Notes under the pieces: generated by a model
The model's database searches: none
The model's input: only the letters and a program-made list of their open reading frames with translations
Told to the model about the DNA's origin: nothing
Part shown: positions 25,992-37,673 of the stretch, piece after piece
Layout of the letters: the number at the start of each line of letters is the position of its first letter
Numbering within the stretch: position 1 is the stretch's first letter
Program-made: the position numbers and the translations under genes
Origin: Tychonema bourrellyi FEM_GT703
Lineage (GTDB): Bacteria > Cyanobacteriota > Cyanobacteriia > Cyanobacteriales > Microcoleaceae
NCBI RefSeq assembly: GCF_002412335.2
Contig: NZ_NXIB02000010.1
Location: forward strand, 1-44,650
Length of the DNA stretch: 44,650 bases
Direction: 5' to 3'

Positions 25992-26947
25992 AAATGTTTG
26001 AACATCCTGATTTCCGCGATGCTGTCATCGCAGCTAGGGAACATTTCGATCGCTTTGGACTCACCGAACAATTCATCGAGAAAGATTACTATGTCACCTC
26101 GGCGCTGCGAATTGTGGCGAATCAGTGGCGTACTCAAGTCATTTTTAAAGGTGGAACCAGTCTCTCGAAGGGGTGGAAACTAATAGAACGATTCTCGGAG
26201 GATATCGATCTGTTTTTGAACAAACAGGCATTCGTTCCTCCCCTTGGTGCAAACAGAATTGATCAAGAATTAGCAGCAATCGAAAGTGCTGTGGGAGAGC
26301 ATCCTGCTTTGACGCTAGAACCTGATTCGTCCAAGCGGAAGCGGGGGGTTTTTCGCAATAGCTATTTCAGCTACACTCAGCAATTTTCGGGCAATCAGGC
26401 GATCGCCAATCGTGTATTCTTAGAAATGGGAACTCGCAGCGGCACTTATCCTACGCAGACTGTACAACTGTCTTCCTATGTGGCTGAATTTCTGCGTGAA
26501 ATTGGGCAGAGTCTTGATACTGAAGATGAATTGCCTTTCTCTATGCTATTGCTGGACTTTCGGCGCACCTTTGTTGAGAAGCTGTTTGCAATTCACTCTA
26601 AAGTAGTGAAGATTCAGCAGGATGGGCAATCAATTGGAACCTACGCCAGACATTACTACGACCTGTTTTGTTTAGCTCAAAAGTCCGAAGTGCGCCAAAT
26701 GTTCCAAACTGAGGAATACAGCCAGATTAAAGAGGATTGCGATCGCATTAGCCGCGAACACTTCCCAGATTATCAGCCGCCGTCAGCGATGAAATTCTCA
26801 AACAGTTCGGCTCTCTTCCCAACTGGAGAACTGCGTCAAACTATTGCTAGAGAATACGAACAGCAGTGCGGTAGACTCTGCTATGGAAATTATCCAACAT
26901 GGGAGGAGATTGAAGCTTGTTTTGAAGAACTTCGCGATCTACTTTGA
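25988..26947 (+). CDS. AbiEii/AbiGii-type nucleotidyltransferase toxin
   Basis: The toxin half of an AbiE-like pair. It has the AbiEii nucleotidyltransferase motif FKGGTSLSKGW (Gly55-Gly56-Thr-Ser) followed by FSEDIDLFL with Asp72 and Asp74 as metal ligands, all intact. The start is taken as GTG 25988 in GTGA, coupled to the antitoxin stop, with AAGGAG at about 25969; ATG 25994 and GTG 25976 are alternatives. The 319 residues fit the family. Known relatives act on tRNA ends or other nucleic acids; the target here is unknown. Confidence 0.88.
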   Translation: MKMFEHPDFRDAVIAAREHFDRFGLTEQFIEKDYYVTSALRIVANQWRTQVIFKGGTSLSKGWKLIERFSEDIDLFLNKQAFVPPLGANRIDQELAAIESAVGEHPALTLEPDSSKRKRGVFRNSYFSYTQQFSGNQAIANRVFLEMGTRSGTYPTQTVQLSSYVAEFLREIGQSLDTEDELPFSMLLLDFRRTFVEKLFAIHSKVVKIQQDGQSIGTYARHYYDLFCLAQKSEVRQMFQTEEYSQIKEDCDRISREHFPDYQPPSAMKFSNSSALFPTGELRQTIAREYEQQCGRLCYGNYPTWEEIEACFEELRDLL

Positions 26948-27030
26948 CTGTTGAGCCTGAAGCATAAGGAACCGGAAAGCTACCTGGCTAATTCAATGTT
27001 TATTTATGTAGGTTTAGTTAAGGATTTGTT

Positions 27031-27357
27031 ATGAATATTTTGCTAAAAAACTATTGTGTAATGGTTGAATTTCCTGATGTGAGTGGGGCTGAACATTTAG
27101 AAATGTTGCAACTTAGAGATGAGTTGGCAAAAGTTGAATCTCAACTGAGTGAGGAAGAGAAGGGTTTATTAGCAAATGCCGATCGACGGTTAGTTGAACA
27201 AGCAAGGGAGTTTTATGAGGAGTTGTCGAGATTTGTGGATTTAACCCAGAAGCGCAAATTTGAGGAGATTACACCTCAGCGTTGGTGGTGGTATTTGGAT
27301 GTTTTGGCATTGTTGCCGAATTTGATGAAACAAGAGTTGACAAGCGGTGTTGTTTGA
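27031..27357 (+). CDS. Small helical protein of unknown function
   Basis: 108 residues, almost entirely helical and charged (LRDELAKVESQLSEEEKGLL; ADRRLVEQAREFYEELSRF), with a Trp cluster in PQRWWWYLDVLALLPNLM. No catalytic motif is visible. TAAGGA precedes the ATG at 27031; an ATG at 27061 (MVEFPDVSG) is the other possible start. It converges on the STAND ATPase gene with five bases between the stops. No family recognised. Confidence 0.6.
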   Translation: MNILLKNYCVMVEFPDVSGAEHLEMLQLRDELAKVESQLSEEEKGLLANADRRLVEQAREFYEELSRFVDLTQKRKFEEITPQRWWWYLDVLALLPNLMKQELTSGVV

Positions 27358-27362
27358 AACGT

Positions 27363-28778
27363 TTATTCATTGTCGATGTTTGTTAAGTGCGATAATCGAG
27401 TTTTGATATATTGCTTCATTATAGGTGACAAAGTGTAAAAATTTGCTTGTTGTTCTATCAAGCAGCGCCGCGATAGAGATTGCAGCGCATTTGCCAAATC
27501 TGACACCGGAATTATGTCATTTTCAAGTAATTTTGCCCGATCGACCGGCTGGCTTTCCCTCGCCAACAAGCAGATTACTTGTTTTTCTAGTTCCGATAGG
27601 CGATCGAACTGCTGCTGTAAAACATCTTTCAAATCTTCCGGCAACAATATGGTATCATTTGGTAATAACTCAGTCACGCCTCCTCCCAATTCTTGAATCA
27701 GACTGGCCACGCTTTTTAACCATAGGGGGTTGCCTTGGTAGCGATGAATGAGTGTTTCACTGTTGTCGCTTTCTGCTAACCCATAATCTCTGAGGATTTC
27801 CCGTGCGGCTGCGATGTCTAAACCTTTGAGTTGTAAAGTACGAATGGGAGTATTTTGGTTTTTAACTTGAGTCACTTCTCTGGGTTGTTCCCAACCGATT
27901 AGCAGCAAGCAACTTTGATGGGATAATTTTTCTATTTGTTTGAATAAAGAGCGATATTCTTCGCATTCTGGTTTGTATTTTCCTGCCGATTCGCCACTAC
28001 AGAAAAGGTTGTGAACGTCATCTAAGACTATTAAACAGCGATGATTTTGCAAATATTTAATCAGCGGTAAGCGTTTCTGGTTTGTTGGCGAGGAATCTAG
28101 GTTTTCTGACTTGGAAAAAAGCTGTATTAGGTTAGGTTGAAATTTATCGATGGTGGGGAATTCGTCTAGGGTGCACCAAACTGTGTACTCAAACTCGTCT
28201 TTGATTTGTTGTACGAGTTGCACTGCTAAGCTGGTTTTGCCGATTCCGCTGATGCCGGTGATGGCTATGAGGCGGCAGTTTTGTTGTAGAATCCAGGTTG
28301 TGAGGGTTTGGAGTTCGTGGGTGCGATCGAAGAAAGTGCCTAATTCTGGCATCTCGCTTAAATCTTGATGTGGAGTTTCAGGTTGTTTTGTGTTAGATGT
28401 TTCTTGATTTGGTGGGGGTTGGTTTGGGATGTTTGGCGGGTGTCTAGCTTGTCCACAGGTGTTAAAACTACCACTGATGTGTTGTTCGTTGACGTTTTGT
28501 GCAAAGTTTGAAACATTAGAGACTTGGAACCTCTCCATTGCTGATCGGAAATTTGATTTAGTAACTTTTTCTCCCAATTCTTCTGAGAGTATTTGCCATA
28601 ATTGCGATCCGATTTCCCTGATGCGACTTTCAGAACAGTCAAAGTCTTTGGCTATTTCTTTGTATGTCTCCCGTTGTAGAGTTCCTCGCAGTACCGCCTC
28701 TTGTAAATCGTCAAGATGTTGGCCTGTTTTGGCAAATACTATATCATCAGCGAATTTTAACATTTCTTTAAGATTCAT
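27363..28778 (-). CDS. NB-ARC (STAND) ATPase with N-terminal HTH, no repeat sensor domain
   Basis: The 471 residues begin with a helical HTH-like domain common in cyanobacterial STAND proteins (residues 1-85; TLQRETYKEIAKDFDCSESRIREIG, in two pieces), then a Pro/Asn/Gln-rich linker (about 90-140), an NB-ARC domain with Walker A GISGIGKTS (175-183) and Walker B CLIVLDDV (248-255), and a winged-helix end (VICLLARESQPVDRAKLL). Most STAND proteins continue into WD40, TPR or effector domains; this one stops after the winged helix. It may be a regulator or a truncated sensor. Three 10-bp repeats lie 53 bp upstream. Confidence 0.87.
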   Translation of the reverse strand: MNLKEMLKFADDIVFAKTGQHLDDLQEAVLRGTLQRETYKEIAKDFDCSESRIREIGSQLWQILSEELGEKVTKSNFRSAMERFQVSNVSNFAQNVNEQHISGSFNTCGQARHPPNIPNQPPPNQETSNTKQPETPHQDLSEMPELGTFFDRTHELQTLTTWILQQNCRLIAITGISGIGKTSLAVQLVQQIKDEFEYTVWCTLDEFPTIDKFQPNLIQLFSKSENLDSSPTNQKRLPLIKYLQNHRCLIVLDDVHNLFCSGESAGKYKPECEEYRSLFKQIEKLSHQSCLLLIGWEQPREVTQVKNQNTPIRTLQLKGLDIAAAREILRDYGLAESDNSETLIHRYQGNPLWLKSVASLIQELGGGVTELLPNDTILLPEDLKDVLQQQFDRLSELEKQVICLLARESQPVDRAKLLENDIIPVSDLANALQSLSRRCLIEQQANFYTLSPIMKQYIKTRLSHLTNIDNE

Positions 28779-28830
28779 CTGGTTTGGTAGATGCGAGATT
28801 TTTTGTATTGTAGCTCACATTTGCCAGCAT

Positions 28831-28860
28831 TTTCGTACAATTTCGTATATTTTTGTACAA
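28831..28860. promoter_or_regulatory. Three 10-bp direct repeats upstream of the STAND gene
   Basis: TTTCGTACAA, TTTCGTATAT and TTTTGTACAA lie end to end with a 10-bp period, so equivalent bases fall on one face of the helix. They are 53-82 bp upstream of the STAND start and about 200 bp upstream of the nucleotidyltransferase operon. Possibly an operator for the HTH domain of the STAND protein. The rest of 28861-29060 shows only a TATAAT at 29026-29031, a possible -10 for the next operon. Confidence 0.45.
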
Positions 28861-29060
28861 ATTTAGATTTAAGAGAATGAAAGTGGGGGGAGGTTGGCGG
28901 CAAAATAGGATGTTTTGGGGCTAGACAAATCTTTGATTTGTAAGGATGATGGAAGAAGTCTCAAGCGTCACGGGATTGAACGTTTGCTGTTTGATAGCCT
29001 TTAATAATGTATTAAACTTTTGCGGTATAATTAATAGTTAGCTGGCTTCGGTATCAGGTA

Positions 29061-29792
29061 ATGTTAACTCTCAGGAAAAACTTCCAAATAATGAGCCATG
29101 AGACGATGTGCGAATTTGAACACCTGACAAGCCAAATTATTAATAATTTTGGTTCAGAATTAGTAGCGGTTCTGGGATATGGATCGAGAATCAACAATCG
29201 AAAAGCAGTCGATGCATTTTCCGACTACGATATTACGGTCGTTTTTTCTGACTACCCTAATAATCATTTCCCTGATTTGCCCATATATGCTGATGTAACG
29301 ATGGTCTTTCTTTCAGAGATTGAGCTAACAGGAGTAGAACTCTTTCGATTGGATGGTCACGGGGCATACTACCTATATGTACTAGCGCACGCTGTTGCGT
29401 TGTACGGATCGAACCCCTTTTCTAACTTTGCCGCTCGACTCGATACAGACTCCGTAAATATGAGTTTGCGAGAACAGATAGTAGCTTATTGCTGGAAATT
29501 ACAGAGAATTGTAATACAACCACAGACCAACAGAAAATGGAGGGACATCAGAAAATATTCTTTAAGAATGGCACAGAATTACTACTTTTTAGTTAAGGGA
29601 ATTTGCTGTGAAGTTTTTTGGGATTTGAGTTATGTAGAATGTGTTGCTGAGTTATGCAAAGTTCTAATATTGGAAGATAAATTCGCTAGTTACTTGATTA
29701 AATCTGCACAATATCCTGAGCGACTTGAAATAAAAGAAGTTTTAGAGTATGCCGCTCTATTGAAAGCAAAGGTAGCAATCAAAGATGGATGA
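29061..29792 (+). CDS. Nucleotidyltransferase-fold protein (gene 1 of NTase-NTase-carbamoyltransferase operon)
   Basis: 243 residues. The N-terminal half is a polymerase-beta-type nucleotidyltransferase core: LGYGSRINN (Gly41-Ser42), then FSDYDITVVF (Asp55, Asp57) and YADVTMVF (Asp78 as likely third carboxylate), so the metal site looks complete. The C-terminal half is helical (about 130-235: QIVAYCWKLQRIVIQPQTN; SLRMAQNYYFLVKGI), like the accessory helical domain of aminoglycoside-type transferases. Start: ATG 29061, or ATG 29091 in frame. It overlaps the next gene by eight bases. Substrate unknown. AT-rich, no HIP1 site. Confidence 0.75.
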   Translation: MLTLRKNFQIMSHETMCEFEHLTSQIINNFGSELVAVLGYGSRINNRKAVDAFSDYDITVVFSDYPNNHFPDLPIYADVTMVFLSEIELTGVELFRLDGHGAYYLYVLAHAVALYGSNPFSNFAARLDTDSVNMSLREQIVAYCWKLQRIVIQPQTNRKWRDIRKYSLRMAQNYYFLVKGICCEVFWDLSYVECVAELCKVLILEDKFASYLIKSAQYPERLEIKEVLEYAALLKAKVAIKDG

Positions 29793-30960
29793 ACTATTCC
29801 GAAAGGTGTTTGATAAATGTATCAAGTTTTCTAACGACACTCGCAAGTCTCTTCTTGCCCAAATTGACTCTTTCGACACGTACTTAGCGGGATCGGTATC
29901 TAGGAGTGAAGCACTTCCGATGTCTGATCTTGATGTCGTTTATTTCGGGGATGAAGGTAAACTTGACCTTGTTGAAGTGAAGAATATCGACAGGATAGAT
30001 GATTTATGTATCCCTGATGAAAACAGTGCAGATTTGCTTCTATTGAGAATGTCTCCAGAGGCAGGCTTCTTGGATTCTGTGCCACTTAACAATCATCACC
30101 ATAAATACTATGATAAATTTAGAAGCATTCCCCATCTGGTCAGTAAGTCTTTATGGGAGTACGAATATTCGCGAAGGTTCAACGAAAGGTCAACTGATGG
30201 AGGTATTAATATGAAATATTCAGTGGGCGGATATCGAGATATCCTGATAATTAATTTGCTGGCTCGCTGCCTTCTACCCGATAGAGATGAAGACAACCCG
30301 GAAATTTATCAATCAATAGAAATTTTGAGTGCAGAGCTACAATTATCGAAAGTAAGAAAGAAGCAGGTGCTTAACGCAATTGCACTTATTATGCTCACTA
30401 AGTCGGTAGTTCTGATGGCAGGTCGAACGACTTCTTCAAAAGGACAGACATTGCTTAATATAGGCACTCTCAATGAAACTTTTAGACAGTATTCTTGGCT
30501 CTCTATGATATCACTTAATTCACCGAGTTATCTCAGCAAATATAATTCGGCAAAGCACGTTGTCTCGAAATTCACGCTAGACGCGGCTAATCTCATCAAA
30601 AGGATCTGCAAAGAAAACATTTTGGAATCAGTAAAAATAGCTCTTGAGTGCGCTGTAGGTTCTCGAAATATCAGCGTATTGGATGTGGAGAAAAATAGCG
30701 AACTAAACGTTTTTCCTGTTTTTGCTTGTCTGATCCACAATCCATCAATCAACAGCGCAGAATTAGAAAGGTTACGAGAGATAGCCTCTGATGATCCAGG
30801 GCATTACTACACAAACCGATTGTTGGCGAAGTCGCAAAATGCATCATACCATCTTCTCTGTAGCCTGAAAAGCAATGCACGATTCGCTTTGGATCGTAGA
30901 ACTGATATGCGTTACAAAAGTCTGGTCGCAAATAGATTGGAGCGTCAGTATGGCAATTGA
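29785..30960 (+). CDS. Second nucleotidyltransferase-fold protein (gene 2 of the operon)
   Basis: 391 residues. Near the N-terminus it has LAGSVSRSEALPMSDLDVVYFG: Gly36-Ser37 and Asp48/Asp50 in the GS...SDLD pattern of the GlnD/DUF294-like nucleotidyltransferases. The remaining 300 residues are mostly helical (GYRDILIINLLARCLLPD; AELQLSKVRKKQVLNAIALI) with no ACT or HD domain recognised, so it is not GlnD. It begins within gene 1 and ends within gene 3, so all three proteins are translationally coupled. It might nucleotidylate a protein, RNA or small molecule; none is shown. Confidence 0.72.
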   Translation: MDELFRKVFDKCIKFSNDTRKSLLAQIDSFDTYLAGSVSRSEALPMSDLDVVYFGDEGKLDLVEVKNIDRIDDLCIPDENSADLLLLRMSPEAGFLDSVPLNNHHHKYYDKFRSIPHLVSKSLWEYEYSRRFNERSTDGGINMKYSVGGYRDILIINLLARCLLPDRDEDNPEIYQSIEILSAELQLSKVRKKQVLNAIALIMLTKSVVLMAGRTTSSKGQTLLNIGTLNETFRQYSWLSMISLNSPSYLSKYNSAKHVVSKFTLDAANLIKRICKENILESVKIALECAVGSRNISVLDVEKNSELNVFPVFACLIHNPSINSAELERLREIASDDPGHYYTNRLLAKSQNASYHLLCSLKSNARFALDRRTDMRYKSLVANRLERQYGN

Positions 30961-32530
30961 CAGTCAATTAATTGGGGTAAGCCTCGCATTCAATTTTCAC
31001 GATTCTAATTGTGCGCTGTCAATCGGTAATACAATTGTTGCAACACTGGAACTTGAAAGACTATTCCGTTCAAAGCGTATGAGCGCTTCCATAGCTCATA
31101 TGGAACTTGCTGTTAATTATTTGCTGCATTGCTATAACTTGAGGTCAAGTCAGATTGACTATTTAGTAGTAAACGCGCTGAATAACCCTTTCGATCAAGT
31201 AAGCAGTAATAAAGATATTCGCGAAGCAACTTATCGCTTTCTTGGAAAAGACCACCTTACATACGTGGTTCGGCATCATCTTGCCCATGCTGGTTACTTT
31301 TACTTTTCACCTTTCCGTAGAGCTCTGATCTGTAGTTGTGACGGAGGCGGCGATCTTGGAGAAAGAGTTACTTATTTTCTGGGCGATGGTGCTTGTTTAG
31401 AGCGGCTTGAGATCGAAGTGTCCAGACATACATCTACAAAGCCATACGGTCAATTTTCATCCTTTTTATATGGCGAAGCTTTTTGTGAGGGTAAGCTTAT
31501 GGCTCTATCTAGTTTTGGTGCAACATCTGAAAGGATAATAGAATTAGTAAACAGTATCTTTCCAAAGCTACGTAACGTACTTTTTTCTGAAGGTCAAGGC
31601 TTGCTAAATGAGACATTTCAAGGGTTTCAAGGAATGGCTCAATCTGACCCAATACAAGCAGCCGATTTAGCTTATGCGGTTCAGGAGGAATTCGTTAGAA
31701 GACGAGTATCGGATATAAAAAGTGTTTTTATACCAGAGTACAAAAACTTAGTCTTGGTTGGAGGTAGCGCTCTTAACTTATCTTGCAACACCAGTATTCT
31801 AAACGAAGTTACCAAAAATGTTTATATCCCTCCTTGCTGCGACGATACTGGTATAGCCGCTGGACAGTGTGCTGTTGTAATAGCAAATTTGCTAGGAGTT
31901 CGAGCTACGTTCAATCTTCCATACATGAGCGTAGATGAAAATAACTTAGAACGTAGCAGATATTTTGGTTCTGCTTCAGCGCAACATAATCTTGTTCAGG
32001 ATGTGACTGTTGCAGCAAAACAACTGGCGGAGGGGGCATTGTGTCTCACACACATTGGTCGCCCCGAAGTCGGACCTCGCGCACTTGGACATAGATCGTT
32101 TCTCATTGGTGCCGGAGACATTCGACAACGTGAATCTGTTAGTTCTACGATCAAAAAAAGAGAGTGGTATCGACCTGTTGCACCCATCATCCTAGCTGAG
32201 GATGCAACAGAATACTTTTTTGGAGGTCCCAACGAATCTCCTTATATGCTTTACAGCTACCACGCCACGGATACGGGCAAGGAATTTATCCCCGCAGGGC
32301 TTCATATTGATGGCACTGCTCGTGTTCAAACAGTTACTAAAGAGGATGATGAAACGCTATACCGCCTCCTGATAGAATATAAAAAGATCACAGGGGTCGG
32401 TGTGCTATTGAACACCTCATTGAATTTGAAAGGTCAACCATTATCCAATTTTGCTTTTGATACTTTGGAAATATCGAGAAAAATAAACATGAAATCATTC
32501 ATTTTAACTAATGAGGAAAGTGAAAATTAA
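30950..32530 (+). CDS. Carbamoyltransferase, TobZ/NodU/CmcH family (gene 3 of the operon)
   Basis: Transfers carbamoyl from carbamoyl phosphate by way of carbamoyl-AMP to a hydroxyl or amine. The start ATG 30950, with GGAG at about 30939, overlaps gene 2 by 11 bases and gives 526 residues; the frame is open from 30875 but inside gene 2. Kae1-like half: NFHDSNCALSIG, metal histidines H109-H-L-A-H113, CDGGGDLGER, LVLVGGSALNLSCNT, PPCCDDTGIAAGQC. YrdC-associated C-terminal half: GRPEVGPRALGHRSFLIGA, KKREWYRPVAPIIL, LLNTSLNLKGQPLS. All core motifs look intact. Relatives act on antibiotics, Nod factors and saxitoxin (SxtI), but no such pathway genes are here. Confidence 0.88.
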   Translation: MAIDSQLIGVSLAFNFHDSNCALSIGNTIVATLELERLFRSKRMSASIAHMELAVNYLLHCYNLRSSQIDYLVVNALNNPFDQVSSNKDIREATYRFLGKDHLTYVVRHHLAHAGYFYFSPFRRALICSCDGGGDLGERVTYFLGDGACLERLEIEVSRHTSTKPYGQFSSFLYGEAFCEGKLMALSSFGATSERIIELVNSIFPKLRNVLFSEGQGLLNETFQGFQGMAQSDPIQAADLAYAVQEEFVRRRVSDIKSVFIPEYKNLVLVGGSALNLSCNTSILNEVTKNVYIPPCCDDTGIAAGQCAVVIANLLGVRATFNLPYMSVDENNLERSRYFGSASAQHNLVQDVTVAAKQLAEGALCLTHIGRPEVGPRALGHRSFLIGAGDIRQRESVSSTIKKREWYRPVAPIILAEDATEYFFGGPNESPYMLYSYHATDTGKEFIPAGLHIDGTARVQTVTKEDDETLYRLLIEYKKITGVGVLLNTSLNLKGQPLSNFAFDTLEISRKINMKSFILTNEESEN

Positions 32531-32561
32531 TCTTGTTAGTGAGGCATTTTTTAAGTCTTGC

Positions 32562-32733
32562 ATATGTTTGGAAGCCCTATGAAGGTGAAGTTTATAGACC
32601 ACTACTAGCATCACCGGACTTAAAGAACAAGCTTGATGAATTGCTGAGCGTGGGGTAAATCCTTTCAGTGGAGGCATAGCCCTTCACACCAAATACCAAA
32701 CAGTACGATGATTGTACGAGTTGCGATCGCTCA
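32562..32733 (+). pseudogene. Truncated 3' copy of the 34178-34702 gene (direct repeat A)
   Basis: From TATGTTTGG at 32563 it reads YVWKPYEGEVYRPLLASPDL, then NKLDELLSVG and TAA at 32656-32658, matching the last 32 residues of the 34178 gene with few changes. The DNA match continues past the stop to GCGATCGC near 32733, so it is a segmental duplicate (the intact counterpart is 34609-34775). It has no 5' part and abuts the carbamoyltransferase gene. Confidence 0.88.
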
Positions 32734-32752
32734 CTAAAACTCATCCTAATTA

Positions 32753-33208
32753 TTAAGTAGATAAAGACGGCACTGTAAAATTTGTAAACAATTGCACATC
32801 AAACTCACTACCTGTCAAAGAATTCACTAACCGTTCATCCAATGTTAGCAACGGTGCTGTGACTTGCTCTGACAGTGCCACATAGCAGCCATCATAAGCT
32901 GTGATACCATAGTCCAATCCAATTTGAACAGCTTTATTCATTAGCTCTTTGGTTGAAGTAACTTGAAATCGTAAAGCTTTTAAGTCACTTAGATCGGCCT
33001 GAACTTGTTCGGCAGTGTAGAGTTTAGCTCGAACATACTTCCAAAGAACATTAGCACACTCAATATAAAACAGATCTGGCACAAAAAACTCAACAGCCGG
33101 ATCGTCAAGACAATCGAATAATTGATTAACTTTAGGAGTCAAAGGATCGACGATAAACTGCTTAATACAAATATTTGTATCCAGTACCAATCGTAGCGGA
33201 ACAGTCAT
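32753..33208 (-). CDS. vapC: VapC-like PIN-domain toxin
   Basis: PIN-fold ribonuclease, 151 residues. The four acidic active-site residues are in place: Asp10 (LVLDTN), Glu50 (FYIECANVLW), Asp106 (ITAYDGCYVAL) and Asp124 (LLTLDERL). Such toxins usually cut tRNA or rRNA. Its start overlaps the antitoxin stop by four bases (ATGA), the usual VapBC coupling. It is located inside the direct repeat pair 32562/34609, so it may have arrived with that rearrangement. Confidence 0.92.
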   Translation of the reverse strand: MTVPLRLVLDTNICIKQFIVDPLTPKVNQLFDCLDDPAVEFFVPDLFYIECANVLWKYVRAKLYTAEQVQADLSDLKALRFQVTSTKELMNKAVQIGLDYGITAYDGCYVALSEQVTAPLLTLDERLVNSLTGSEFDVQLFTNFTVPSLST

Positions 33209-33480
33209 CTGTTGCGATCCTCTCGAATCAAAACAGTGCTATCCGTTAATCCAAAATCCCTTGGATTAACTCTAGGACGACTGCGAATCCTTTGTAGGAT
33301 TGCTGACGTTAGTTGGCTTTCTTGCGCCCGATCTATCATTACTTTGTCGGACTCAAATGATTGCTTCAATAGATGAATCACTGCCTCATTGAGAGTAAAA
33401 TTTTTTTCAGAGGCAAGACATTGAATACGACTGTATAATTCATCGGGTAGATTTTGAATCTGAAGTGTAGCCATTGCCAT
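33205..33480 (-). CDS. vapB: VapB-like ribbon-helix-helix antitoxin
   Basis: 91 residues; the N-terminus MATLQIQNLPDELYSRIQCL and FTLNEAVIHLLKQ form a ribbon-helix-helix (Arc-type) DNA-binding domain, of the FitA/VapB kind. The C-terminus is charged and would wrap the PIN toxin. Two starts are possible, 33480 (MAMATLQ) and 33474 (MATLQ); the second is the usual form. Autoregulation of the pair is expected. Confidence 0.87.
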   Translation of the reverse strand: MAMATLQIQNLPDELYSRIQCLASEKNFTLNEAVIHLLKQSFESDKVMIDRAQESQLTSAILQRIRSRPRVNPRDFGLTDSTVLIREDRNR

Positions 33481-33532
33481 TTCATAGTTACTTTATTCAT
33501 TATATCACAGTTTAACTCAAGCGTCAATGTTC

Positions 33533-33597
33533 AGAAACCGGGTTTCTCAGATAACTCAAGCATCGCCGCCGAGATTTTCTTCAGAAACCCGGTTTTT
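33533..33597. repeat. AGAAACCGGGTTTCT palindrome pair
   Basis: AGAAACCGGGTTTCT (33533-33547) is a perfect palindrome around its centre and recurs as AGAAACCCGGTTTTT (33583-33597). It lies between the vapB start and the 33704 gene. This palindrome is a common dispersed repeat between cyanobacterial genes. Confidence 0.75.
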
Positions 33598-33703
33598 CAC
33601 CCCCACGCGATACGGCCACCAAAAGAAAGCGCGATCGCGTGAAACCAATGCAGCAATTACCTTATAATTAGTCTGGCGATCGTGTTAGGCTGATGAAACG
33701 CTC

Positions 33704-34147
33704 ATGACAAGACTCTATTATCGAGGCATGGCAGAAGAAAACGGTAAACCCAAAATCGGACGCAATGCGAGGCTACTGGGAGTCAGACCCGCTATTGACA
33801 TTGATGTTGAGCAAGTGCCCAAAGAATGGTTGGATGAACAAGGTTATTTACGGCCAGAAACAGAGCGCAATTCTTCAGAGGAGTCTGTCACTGTAGCTAT
33901 TAGAAACACAAAAGGAATGTCCGTATCCCTATCTATCGAAGGCTTGCCACCATTTCGCAAACCCCCAAAATTTGGCGGCACAGGAAAAGATCCTCTTTGG
34001 CAGATTGACGACAGCAAGATCGTCGGAGATATTGAAGCTGTACAAGATAGTCCAACTCATGTCAGTATTTTGCCAAGCGCTACAATGCTTTTAGAGAAAT
34101 ATGAAACAGCCCTCGCCCAGACACAAAGCGAATGGGAGAAAGTTTGA
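33704..34147 (+). CDS. Possible Tse2-like ADP-ribosyltransferase toxin
   Basis: 147 residues. The N-terminus LYYRGMAEENGKPKIGRNARLLGVRP followed by DIDVEQVP and KGMSVSLSIEGLPPF (in pieces) recalls Tse2-type toxin domains, which have an LYR start, a GPSARxLGVRPG-like turn and a GMSVS motif. The likeness is by eye and short. The next gene, 30 bp downstream, is a small acidic protein whose 3' end is duplicated nearby, as immunity genes often are. I would call it a candidate toxin, with a plain hypothetical protein as the alternative. Confidence 0.5.
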   Translation: MTRLYYRGMAEENGKPKIGRNARLLGVRPAIDIDVEQVPKEWLDEQGYLRPETERNSSEESVTVAIRNTKGMSVSLSIEGLPPFRKPPKFGGTGKDPLWQIDDSKIVGDIEAVQDSPTHVSILPSATMLLEKYETALAQTQSEWEKV

Positions 34148-34177
34148 TAGTTTAATTTAGTCAAGGGGAGAACAGCA

Positions 34178-34702
34178 ATGGCATGGGTATTTAGCTTATC
34201 GGCTGAATGTGGGACAAAGCAATCTGAAGCAGAGCAATTTGCTCAATATTTCAATCAAATTTCCTGGACGATCTCAAACGGTACACATTCCCAATGTCGG
34301 GCAGAAATTTTTCAGGATATAGAAGAAAATTGGTGGTGCCGAGTTTGTCCAAGTGGCATCAGTGAGATTGGGATAGACACTCCAGAAAGTGCTTATTTAA
34401 TGACGGAAATAGGTATCTTTCTGTATCATAGTTTGCGGTTTGCTCCACCGTTTCGGTATGCTTTAGTTGGTATGGAAGTAGATGAGTTTAGAACCTATAG
34501 CGAATTGATTGAAGAATCGGCCTTGGTTTTTCCAGGATTGGTTTTGGCTGAAGCTGTTTGGCAAGCGACTGGATCGGATTCGGTTTTTCGATCGTTCAGT
34601 CTTGGATATGTTTGGAAGCCCTATGAAGGTGAAGTTTATAGACCACTAATAGCATCGCCTGACCTAAAGAACAAGCTTGATGAATTACTGAGTGTGGGGT
34701 AA
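34178..34702 (+). CDS. Putative immunity/antitoxin partner of the 33704 gene
   Basis: 174 residues, acidic, no signal peptide or membrane segment. It contains FQDIEENWWCRVCPSGISEIG and FAPPFRYALVGMEVDEFRTYSEL and ends YRPLIASPDLKNKLDELLSVG. AAGGGGAG precedes the ATG. No known domain is recognised. Its pairing with the Tse2-like gene and the truncated second copy of its 3' end at 32562 suggest an immunity protein; this is inference from context. Confidence 0.6.
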   Translation: MAWVFSLSAECGTKQSEAEQFAQYFNQISWTISNGTHSQCRAEIFQDIEENWWCRVCPSGISEIGIDTPESAYLMTEIGIFLYHSLRFAPPFRYALVGMEVDEFRTYSELIEESALVFPGLVLAEAVWQATGSDSVFRSFSLGYVWKPYEGEVYRPLIASPDLKNKLDELLSVG

Positions 34703-34778
34703 ATCCCTTCAGTGGATCGATCGCCCTTCGCAGCAAATACCAAACACTGCGATAATTGCACGAGTTGCGATCGCCTCT

Positions 34779-37404: not shown

Positions 37405-37673
37405 AAACATTTTCAGAAAAGCCAGTCTTGAACAGGCAGGATGCCTGTTCCACAAGAAATATGGTCGAGGTTTAACTCAGATCTTGCACCAATATCAATA
37501 AGCCTTTCACAGGCGGGCAGGATGCCCACCCCACAAGAAAATTCATTCTTTGTGGAACAGGCATCTTGCCTGTTACTGACAATGGTGCAACATATGAGTC
37601 TAATAGACATCGCAAGAATTGCCAGTCTTGAACAGGCAGGATGCCTGTTCCACAAGAATTATTGGAAAGGTCT
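37405..37673. repeat. Cluster of at least three 72-bp-type inverted-repeat elements
   Basis: Three copies of the core GAACAGGC...GCCTGTTC, at about 37429-37451, 37505-37535 (a diverged GGCGGGCAGGATGCCCACCCC form) and 37629-37652, plus a half core at 37553-37575 in the other orientation. The last copy, 37604-37673, has recognisable ends TAGACATC and GGTCTA. Its right end runs into the stop codon of the transketolase-family gene. Confidence 0.75.

Follow-up and report, generated by a model that had tools for sequence, protein, structure and literature searches.

Two putative nucleotidyltransferase genes and a carbamoyltransferase gene as candidate exchangeable cargo beside a STAND gene in the cyanobacterium Tychonema bourrellyi

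We analysed a stretch of 44,650 nucleotides from Tychonema bourrellyi FEM_GT703 (contig NZ_NXIB02000010.1, positions 1 to 44,650; hereafter the window), in which three open reading frames (ORFs), here called the trio or genes 1 to 3, overlap by 8 and 11 bases and lie beside a divergent gene for a STAND protein with a putative helix-turn-helix (HTH) and an NB-ARC domain. An earlier reading of the DNA letters (the sequence-only reading) had described the trio as an overlapping operon of two nucleotidyltransferases (NTases) and a carbamoyltransferase (CTase) with a suggested defence or toxin role, and the overlapping layout is borne out here. Gene 3 was read from the ATG at 30950, the mechanically called ORF being open from 30875. 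The features of the locus are as follows:

27031..27357, + strand: 108-amino-acid (aa) gene at the 3' end of the STAND gene, a marker of the same chromosomal locus (94-98% identity in L052-L057)
27363..28778, - strand: STAND gene for a presumed regulator of 471 aa, putative HTH (below cut-off) and NB-ARC (Pfam), transcribed away from the trio
28779..28960: intergenic stretch conserved among STAND copies with different cargos (sequence comparison)
28901..28917: operator-like imperfect inverted repeat CAAAATAGGATGTTTTG, 5' of the promoter-like site, putative function
28922..28950, + strand: promoter-like site TAGACA-17-GATGAT facing the trio (score 9 of 12)
29061..29792, + strand: gene 1, 243 aa, pol-beta-type NTase motif, distantly like PF04439 adenylyltransferases
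29785..30960, + strand: gene 2, 391 aa, N-terminal NTase motif (by motif) and a long region of no recognised fold
30950..32530, + strand: gene 3, 526 aa, class III O-carbamoyltransferase of the TobZ/GdmN/NodU type (by domains)
32551..32730, + strand: right edge of the cargo, repeating in truncated form (89%) the final part of an ORF 3' of a Tse2-like gene (34595-34774)

The NB-ARC domain of the STAND protein is recognised well above the Pfam cut-off (PF00931, 1.1e-14, 54.7 vs 23.5 bits), and 70 of 98 relatives contain a match to the gene at E <= 1e-80. When the DNA was searched in 29 genomes of the genus, the STAND gene and its upstream stretch were found repeated and the trio DNA was not; on named plasmids, relatives of the STAND gene were cyanobacterial in 10 of the 10 matches listed. 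We collected 40 stretches, 38 with a STAND copy and two that are CTase loci (L087 and L088), and drew 60 further STAND loci from the 98 relatives, giving 98 copies and, with the window, 99 loci, in which a simple ORF caller was used to place the neighbouring genes. On the promoter side, the closest gene runs divergently from the STAND gene in 35/38 and 55/60 loci (90/98 together), and the first + strand gene lies 190-345 nt from the STAND start in 32/38 and 45/60 (77/98), a range that includes the trio at 283 nt.

The genes that occupy this position differ from locus to locus. The first genes of these cargos fall into 61 families in the 99 loci, 42 of them seen once, and no relatives of genes 1-3 were found at E <= 0.01 in the 98 other STAND loci. 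Loci with a common 3' neighbour of the STAND gene are the most informative: seven genomes with the same 108-aa 3' neighbour (the window and L052-L057) carry seven cargo families, and one of them, L052, also has in common with the window the AbiEii gene (98%) and a gene at 37672 (96%). Other groups with a common 3' neighbour hold four kinds of cargo in four loci, two in two (three groups), and two in four, and of the cargos that recur, 6/7 were found beside differing 3' neighbours. At this one locus, then, the payload of the slot has been exchanged, and the other loci support the same behaviour. Cargo families, named by Pfam or NCBIfam in the scanned cargos only, are listed below:

L052: TPR
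L053: trypsin and chagasin
L054: AsnRS/AsnA-like
L055: VWA, PP2C, kinase
L063, L289, L290: GTPases
L066: helicase
L068, 2601-9504: TrpRS, TrpA, TrpB, MFS, M14 peptidase, TrpG
L073: type I methylase and S subunit
L076: RTX
L081: JmjC and Suc_Fer
L084: MNIO
L090: GUN4
L295, L296, L298: radical SAM
L322: YcaO
L327: dynamin-like

No family was found for the scanned cargo genes of L058, L064, L069, L074, L082, L089, L292, and L339. The L068 cargo resembles a gene cluster for a small molecule that includes a resistant synthetase of its own, and several cargos (L068, L084, L295, L296, L298, and L322) look biosynthetic from their predicted domains.

The stretch between the STAND gene and the cargo is itself conserved. 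It resembles that of the window in 37 of the 38 loci of the first set, and the block GTTTTGGGGCTAGACAA, with up to 5 mismatches allowed, occurs in 62/99 intergenic stretches vs 0/97 stretches 1 kb downstream and 11/495 shuffles. A cargo-facing -35/-10 pair with a score of at least 10 is present in 65/99 loci (controls, 10/97 and 8/99), its -35 element lying at a near-constant distance from the STAND start (quartiles, 133-144 nt). The promoter-like site of the window scores 9 of 12, and its region holds 19 such sites vs 10.6 expected. Overlapping this promoter-like site is a perfect palindrome with 7-bp arms, ACAAATCTTTGATTTGT (28925-28941), which was considered as an operator common to the STAND loci and rejected because it is absent from the others.

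Gene 3 is the best defined member of the trio. Both of its domains are above the Pfam cut-off (Carbam_trans_N, 1.1e-20; Carbam_trans_C, 1.6e-45), its nearest relatives in the PDB are decarbamoylnovobiocin carbamoyltransferase, GdmN, and TobZ, and it carries HHLAH and GPRALGHRS. In an alignment of 185 CTase rows, of which gene 3 is one, 15 of the 39 positions examined are identical throughout, and the catalytic core of gene 3 is intact. It has in common with TobZ, GdmN, NovN, and NodU both domains, the metal-site HxxxH, and the GPRALG and NTS motifs, but differs from them in an identity of about 30%, a long terminal branch (1.52 vs a median of 0.29, i.e., very divergent), a T at the position of TobZ W408 (W in 112/185 rows), and the lack of adjoining scaffold genes. 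The accessible text of PMC8670742 names W408, G421, and R423 as specificity positions; the equivalents of the latter two are retained in gene 3 as G and R. Judged from its length and domain ends, gene 3 probably has no C-terminal dimerisation domain, and class III CTases of that kind usually modify polar acceptors according to the part of PMC9633730 available to us.

The closest CTases to gene 3, among the matches listed, reach about 25-38% identity in matched segments, and its sister group (L092 and L190) is weak (support 0.88). We assembled 168 CTase loci (80 of the matches listed for GTDB, 80 of those listed for IMG/VR, and eight others), beyond which nearer CTases or another trio may exist. 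Many of the CTases with about 30% identity are located in clusters for natural products or glycans, a setting that the sequence-only reading had said would speak against a defence role if homologues consistently lay there; this holds for many of these distant relatives. The trio might decorate a surface sugar or lipid, as many distant CTases appear to do: glycosyltransferase-like or epimerase-like genes were seen by eye near the CTases of about 30% identity (14/88 and 11/88 loci, respectively), and such genes are annotated in L097 and in L092, one of the two sister loci. However, the trio contains no glycosyltransferase, epimerase, or polysaccharide gene, and Pfam does not place its NTases in the sugar-nucleotide type; we regard glycan or lipid decoration as very unlikely.

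Genes 1 and 2 were recognised by their motifs. The gene families named in the sequence-only reading are supported, by domains above cut-off for the CTase and by motif for the NTases. The motif of gene 1 reads GSRINNRKAVDAFSDYD (G41-S42, D55, D57), with D78 probably as the third acidic residue, and that of gene 2 reads GSVSRSEALPMSDLD. The GS...D-x-D core of both is also that of streptomycin-type adenylyltransferases (PF04439) and other pol-beta NTases; in contrast to those, both proteins are below every curated cut-off and their remainders match nothing. For gene 1 the scores are 19.4 vs 22 bits for PF04439 (E 6e-4) and 15.9 vs 26.9 for Polbeta, and for gene 2 the best match is PF01909 (19.3 vs 21 bits). 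Foldseek with the low-confidence model of gene 1 placed an NTase-like protein first (E 0.18) and AadA third (E 1.3); VIA on gene 1 gave no NTase within the 50 rows shown. Gene 2 contains a faint GlnD-like GGxRDI stretch, and its hhalign comparison with Escherichia coli GlnD (E 0.028; probability 1.8 vs <=0.4 in 20 shuffles) is not significant alone. No GlnD Pfam domain was reported, and we do not assign gene 2 to the GlnD family, the likeness being suggestive only.

The only credible relative of gene 1 that was found lies beside a CTase gene in an unrelated metagenome-assembled genome (L124:8026-8742), with consistent matches in phmmer (3.8e-7; reverse, 7.6e-7), hhalign (2.5e-6), and blastp (27% over 95 aa). 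None was credible in 386 genomes of the phylum (best E 1e-4, in a frame with a stop), a two-row profile built from gene 1 had its best other match at E 4.4e-4 (short or stop-containing), and nothing useful came from gene 1 or the L124 relative in plasmids, or from the gene 1 profile or the NTase motif pattern in IMG/VR. Gene 2 was found in no genome other than that of the window (1 of 98 relatives and 1 of 386 phylum genomes), with no relatives in plasmids or phages; peptide-pattern scans of IMG/VR and GTDB were also empty, six exact 8-residue peptides being a weak test.

A second trio was not found among the genomes, plasmids, phages, and CTase loci listed. Nevertheless, among the 168 CTase loci an NTase-motif ORF lies near the CTase in L094, L119, and L124; pairs of a CTase and an NTase are thus seen repeatedly, unlike the trio. 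The L124 genes are arranged as CTase, a Nudix-like ORF (by eye), and NTase. L119 has an NTase above cut-off (PF01909, 3.2e-6) whose gene shares 8 bases with that of the CTase; a Nudix gene (2.1e-14) and a DHQ synthase-like gene (2.7e-36) lie nearby. The NTase motif of L190 is farther from the CTase, within a methyltransferase-like ORF. The L124 relative adjoining a CTase and the L119 NTase overlapping one suggest a link of gene 1 to CTases. L094:5986-11931, on a Moellerella plasmid, holds between insertion sequence elements a CTase, an NTase-motif protein, DUF6270, SIS, a histidine phosphatase, and HAD. In the window's genus, L087:282-9620 contains TniB, a TniQ-like ORF (by eye), Nudix, a 383-aa ORF, and a CTase, and 3' of this CTase are ORFs resembling type I restriction genes (by eye).

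On balance we lean towards the view that the trio is an exchangeable cargo driven by the STAND protein, whose products would nucleotidylate and carbamoylate a polar small molecule; both the regulation and the chemistry are inferred. Control of the cargo by the STAND protein is suggested by the divergent arrangement, the putative HTH, and the conserved promoter. It may be that the STAND protein senses something and turns on whichever cargo faces the promoter. From what is known of its family, gene 3 would convert carbamoyl phosphate and ATP to carbamoyl-AMP and then carbamoylate a hydroxyl on a polar acceptor, which must come from the host or from uptake because there is no scaffold gene in the cargo. 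Gene 1, and probably gene 2 too, would by its motif add a nucleotide to the same molecule or a precursor, and a bioactive small molecule would thus be produced or masked. In our judgement small-molecule production is preferable to detoxification or defence, given the genes that accompany the CTase-NTase pairs and those found with the other cargos.

A rival reading is a STAND-switched detoxification cassette, in which a competitor's antibiotic or toxin would, after uptake, be inactivated by ANT-like NTases and the CTase. That gene 1 is nearest to the streptomycin adenylyltransferases (PF04439 below cut-off, AadA third in Foldseek) and that the cargo has no scaffold or exporter gene would suit such a role, but both matches of gene 1 are insignificant and the NTases of L124 and L119 lie in small clusters with other enzymes. 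Carbamoylation is known mainly as a biosynthetic decoration and not as a means of resistance, and we consider detoxification unlikely.

Several points weigh against the explanation that we favour, i.e., a STAND-driven cargo acting on a polar small molecule. The STAND loci were hand-picked from ranked lists, and in a control with 36 loci, 21 families were counted among the genes 3' of the STAND gene vs 25 among the cargos. As the 3' neighbours are nearly as diverse, cargo diversity alone is not specific, and the argument for exchange rests on the loci with a common 3' neighbour, one group of which has a single kind of cargo in two loci. TAGACA was accepted as a -35 box only after the alignment had been inspected, and at a promoter score of at least 9 there is no discrimination (88/99 vs 41/97 and 72/99 shuffled). 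The HTH of the STAND protein, like sigma70 region 4, is below cut-off (Sigma70_r4, 21.8 vs 24.1 bits). Genes 1 and 2 are identified as NTases at the level of motifs and their structure models have low confidence (pLDDT 46.6 and 32.7), no relation of the L119 and L094 NTases to genes 1 and 2 was detectable with hhalign, and the biosynthetic-looking cargos L084, L295, L296, L298, and L322 start 546-920 nt from the STAND gene, farther away than is usual for the slot.

The surroundings of the trio are as the sequence-only reading described them (AbiE, STAND, VapBC, HEPN, and DUF262 genes): AbiEii, NB-ARC, PIN, HEPN, and GmrSD/DUF262 were matched above the Pfam cut-off, and the AbiEi neighbour by DUF6088 and PADLOC models only. 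Together with a Tse2-like gene, these neighbours speak for anti-phage defence, in which the trio would make a carbamoylated nucleotide signal or modify RNA or DNA and so block phage; the accessible text of PMC8670742 describes a CTase whose substrate is 5-hydroxymethylcytosine in DNA and RNA, which also counts for this reading. However, slots with small toxin-antitoxin-like genes downstream also carry proteases, tRNA-synthetase-like genes, GUN4, RTX, and RiPP-type (ribosomally synthesised peptide) enzymes, and since the same type of slot holds these other, often non-defence cargos, defence-like neighbours are weak evidence. The 5-hydroxymethylcytosine CTase reportedly requires a hydroxymethyl base, and none of the three genes was seen to resemble a hydroxymethylase. 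PADLOC models gave no match for gene 3, and their best for the trio was PDC-S09 (gene 1, E 0.0026; gene 2, E 0.0095; weak, range 0.0026-0.026). Lack of conservation of the trio elsewhere had been named beforehand as the refuting outcome, and within the searchable data no conservation was seen; with no second trio and gene 2 unique in the 386 phylum genomes, the 98 relatives, plasmids, and phages, a conserved defence system was rejected. The proposed carbamoylated nucleotide or RNA modification found no specific support, and a defence role of any kind seems quite unlikely to us.

The compositional peculiarity of the trio is weak. As had been noted, GCGATCGC is absent from it (P about 0.04; the remainder of the window predicts 3.3 occurrences) and its GC content is lower (40.3% vs 44.2% for the window). 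Both signals are slight: the stretch without GCGATCGC spans 26739-32723, thus extending over the STAND gene, the GC value is at the 13th percentile among stretches of the same length, and still lower values (about 36%) are seen in the HEPN and DUF262 genes.

At the right edge, an 89% direct repeat (32551-32730 and 34595-34774) duplicates the end of a 174-aa ORF directly after gene 3, possibly a sign that recombination took place at this border of the cargo. The other copy belongs to a module at 33704-34702, consisting of a Tse2-like ADP-ribosyltransferase toxin gene (PF18648, 1.9e-17) and then the 174-aa ORF, which has no Pfam match and is possibly the partner of the toxin; the pair was found again in L063 and L091. 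The trio was also considered as a mobile element of its own, but no transposase or integrase is among its ORFs, and it is bounded by the conserved STAND promoter on one side and by the truncated copy of the neighbouring module on the other; this idea was dropped. No RNA element was found by Rfam across 27000-33600.

MalT and AfsR are STAND transcription regulators that combine an HTH with a STAND NTPase and lie beside genes they may control. Compared with them, the STAND protein of the window is short, lacks a long repeat sensor, and is paired with changing cargos. Its architecture itself is not new, since NB-ARC is listed as an accessory domain of cyanobacterial sigma70-like proteins in the accessible part of PMC11119718, where proteins with a similar pair of domains (Sigma70-r4 and NB-ARC) are treated as sigma-like and no exchangeable cargo is described in the passages available. 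The VMAP and MoxR-vWA conflict systems of filamentous bacteria likewise join an NTP-dependent core to variable effector genes (PMC7159879, passages available), but here the cargo is divergent and not fused, and no MoxR AAA ATPase or vWA gene was found among the ten window proteins scanned. In the literature searched, with most subscription papers outside its reach, we found no report of a STAND gene with exchangeable cargo and, in agreement with the sequence-only reading, no described system with the trio.

The operon is real but unique in the data searched, and the slot, a variant of STAND regulators and variable-effector loci, is the more interesting finding. It is conceivable, though doubtful, that filamentous cyanobacteria possess a whole family of STAND-controlled plug-in slots resembling an arsenal, each with a sensor gene that retains its promoter as payloads are swapped, and with the trio as a new payload that makes a nucleotidylated and carbamoylated molecule. 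Some of the first-gene families are without a known domain and several resemble antibiotic, RiPP, or effector genes. Should the slot prove real, searches could start from the side of one recognisable STAND family that faces the cargo, and what short bacterial STAND proteins switch on would become directly testable. If the proposed chemistry is true, the trio would combine nucleotidylation with carbamoylation, a new pair of modifications that has not been described as one unit.

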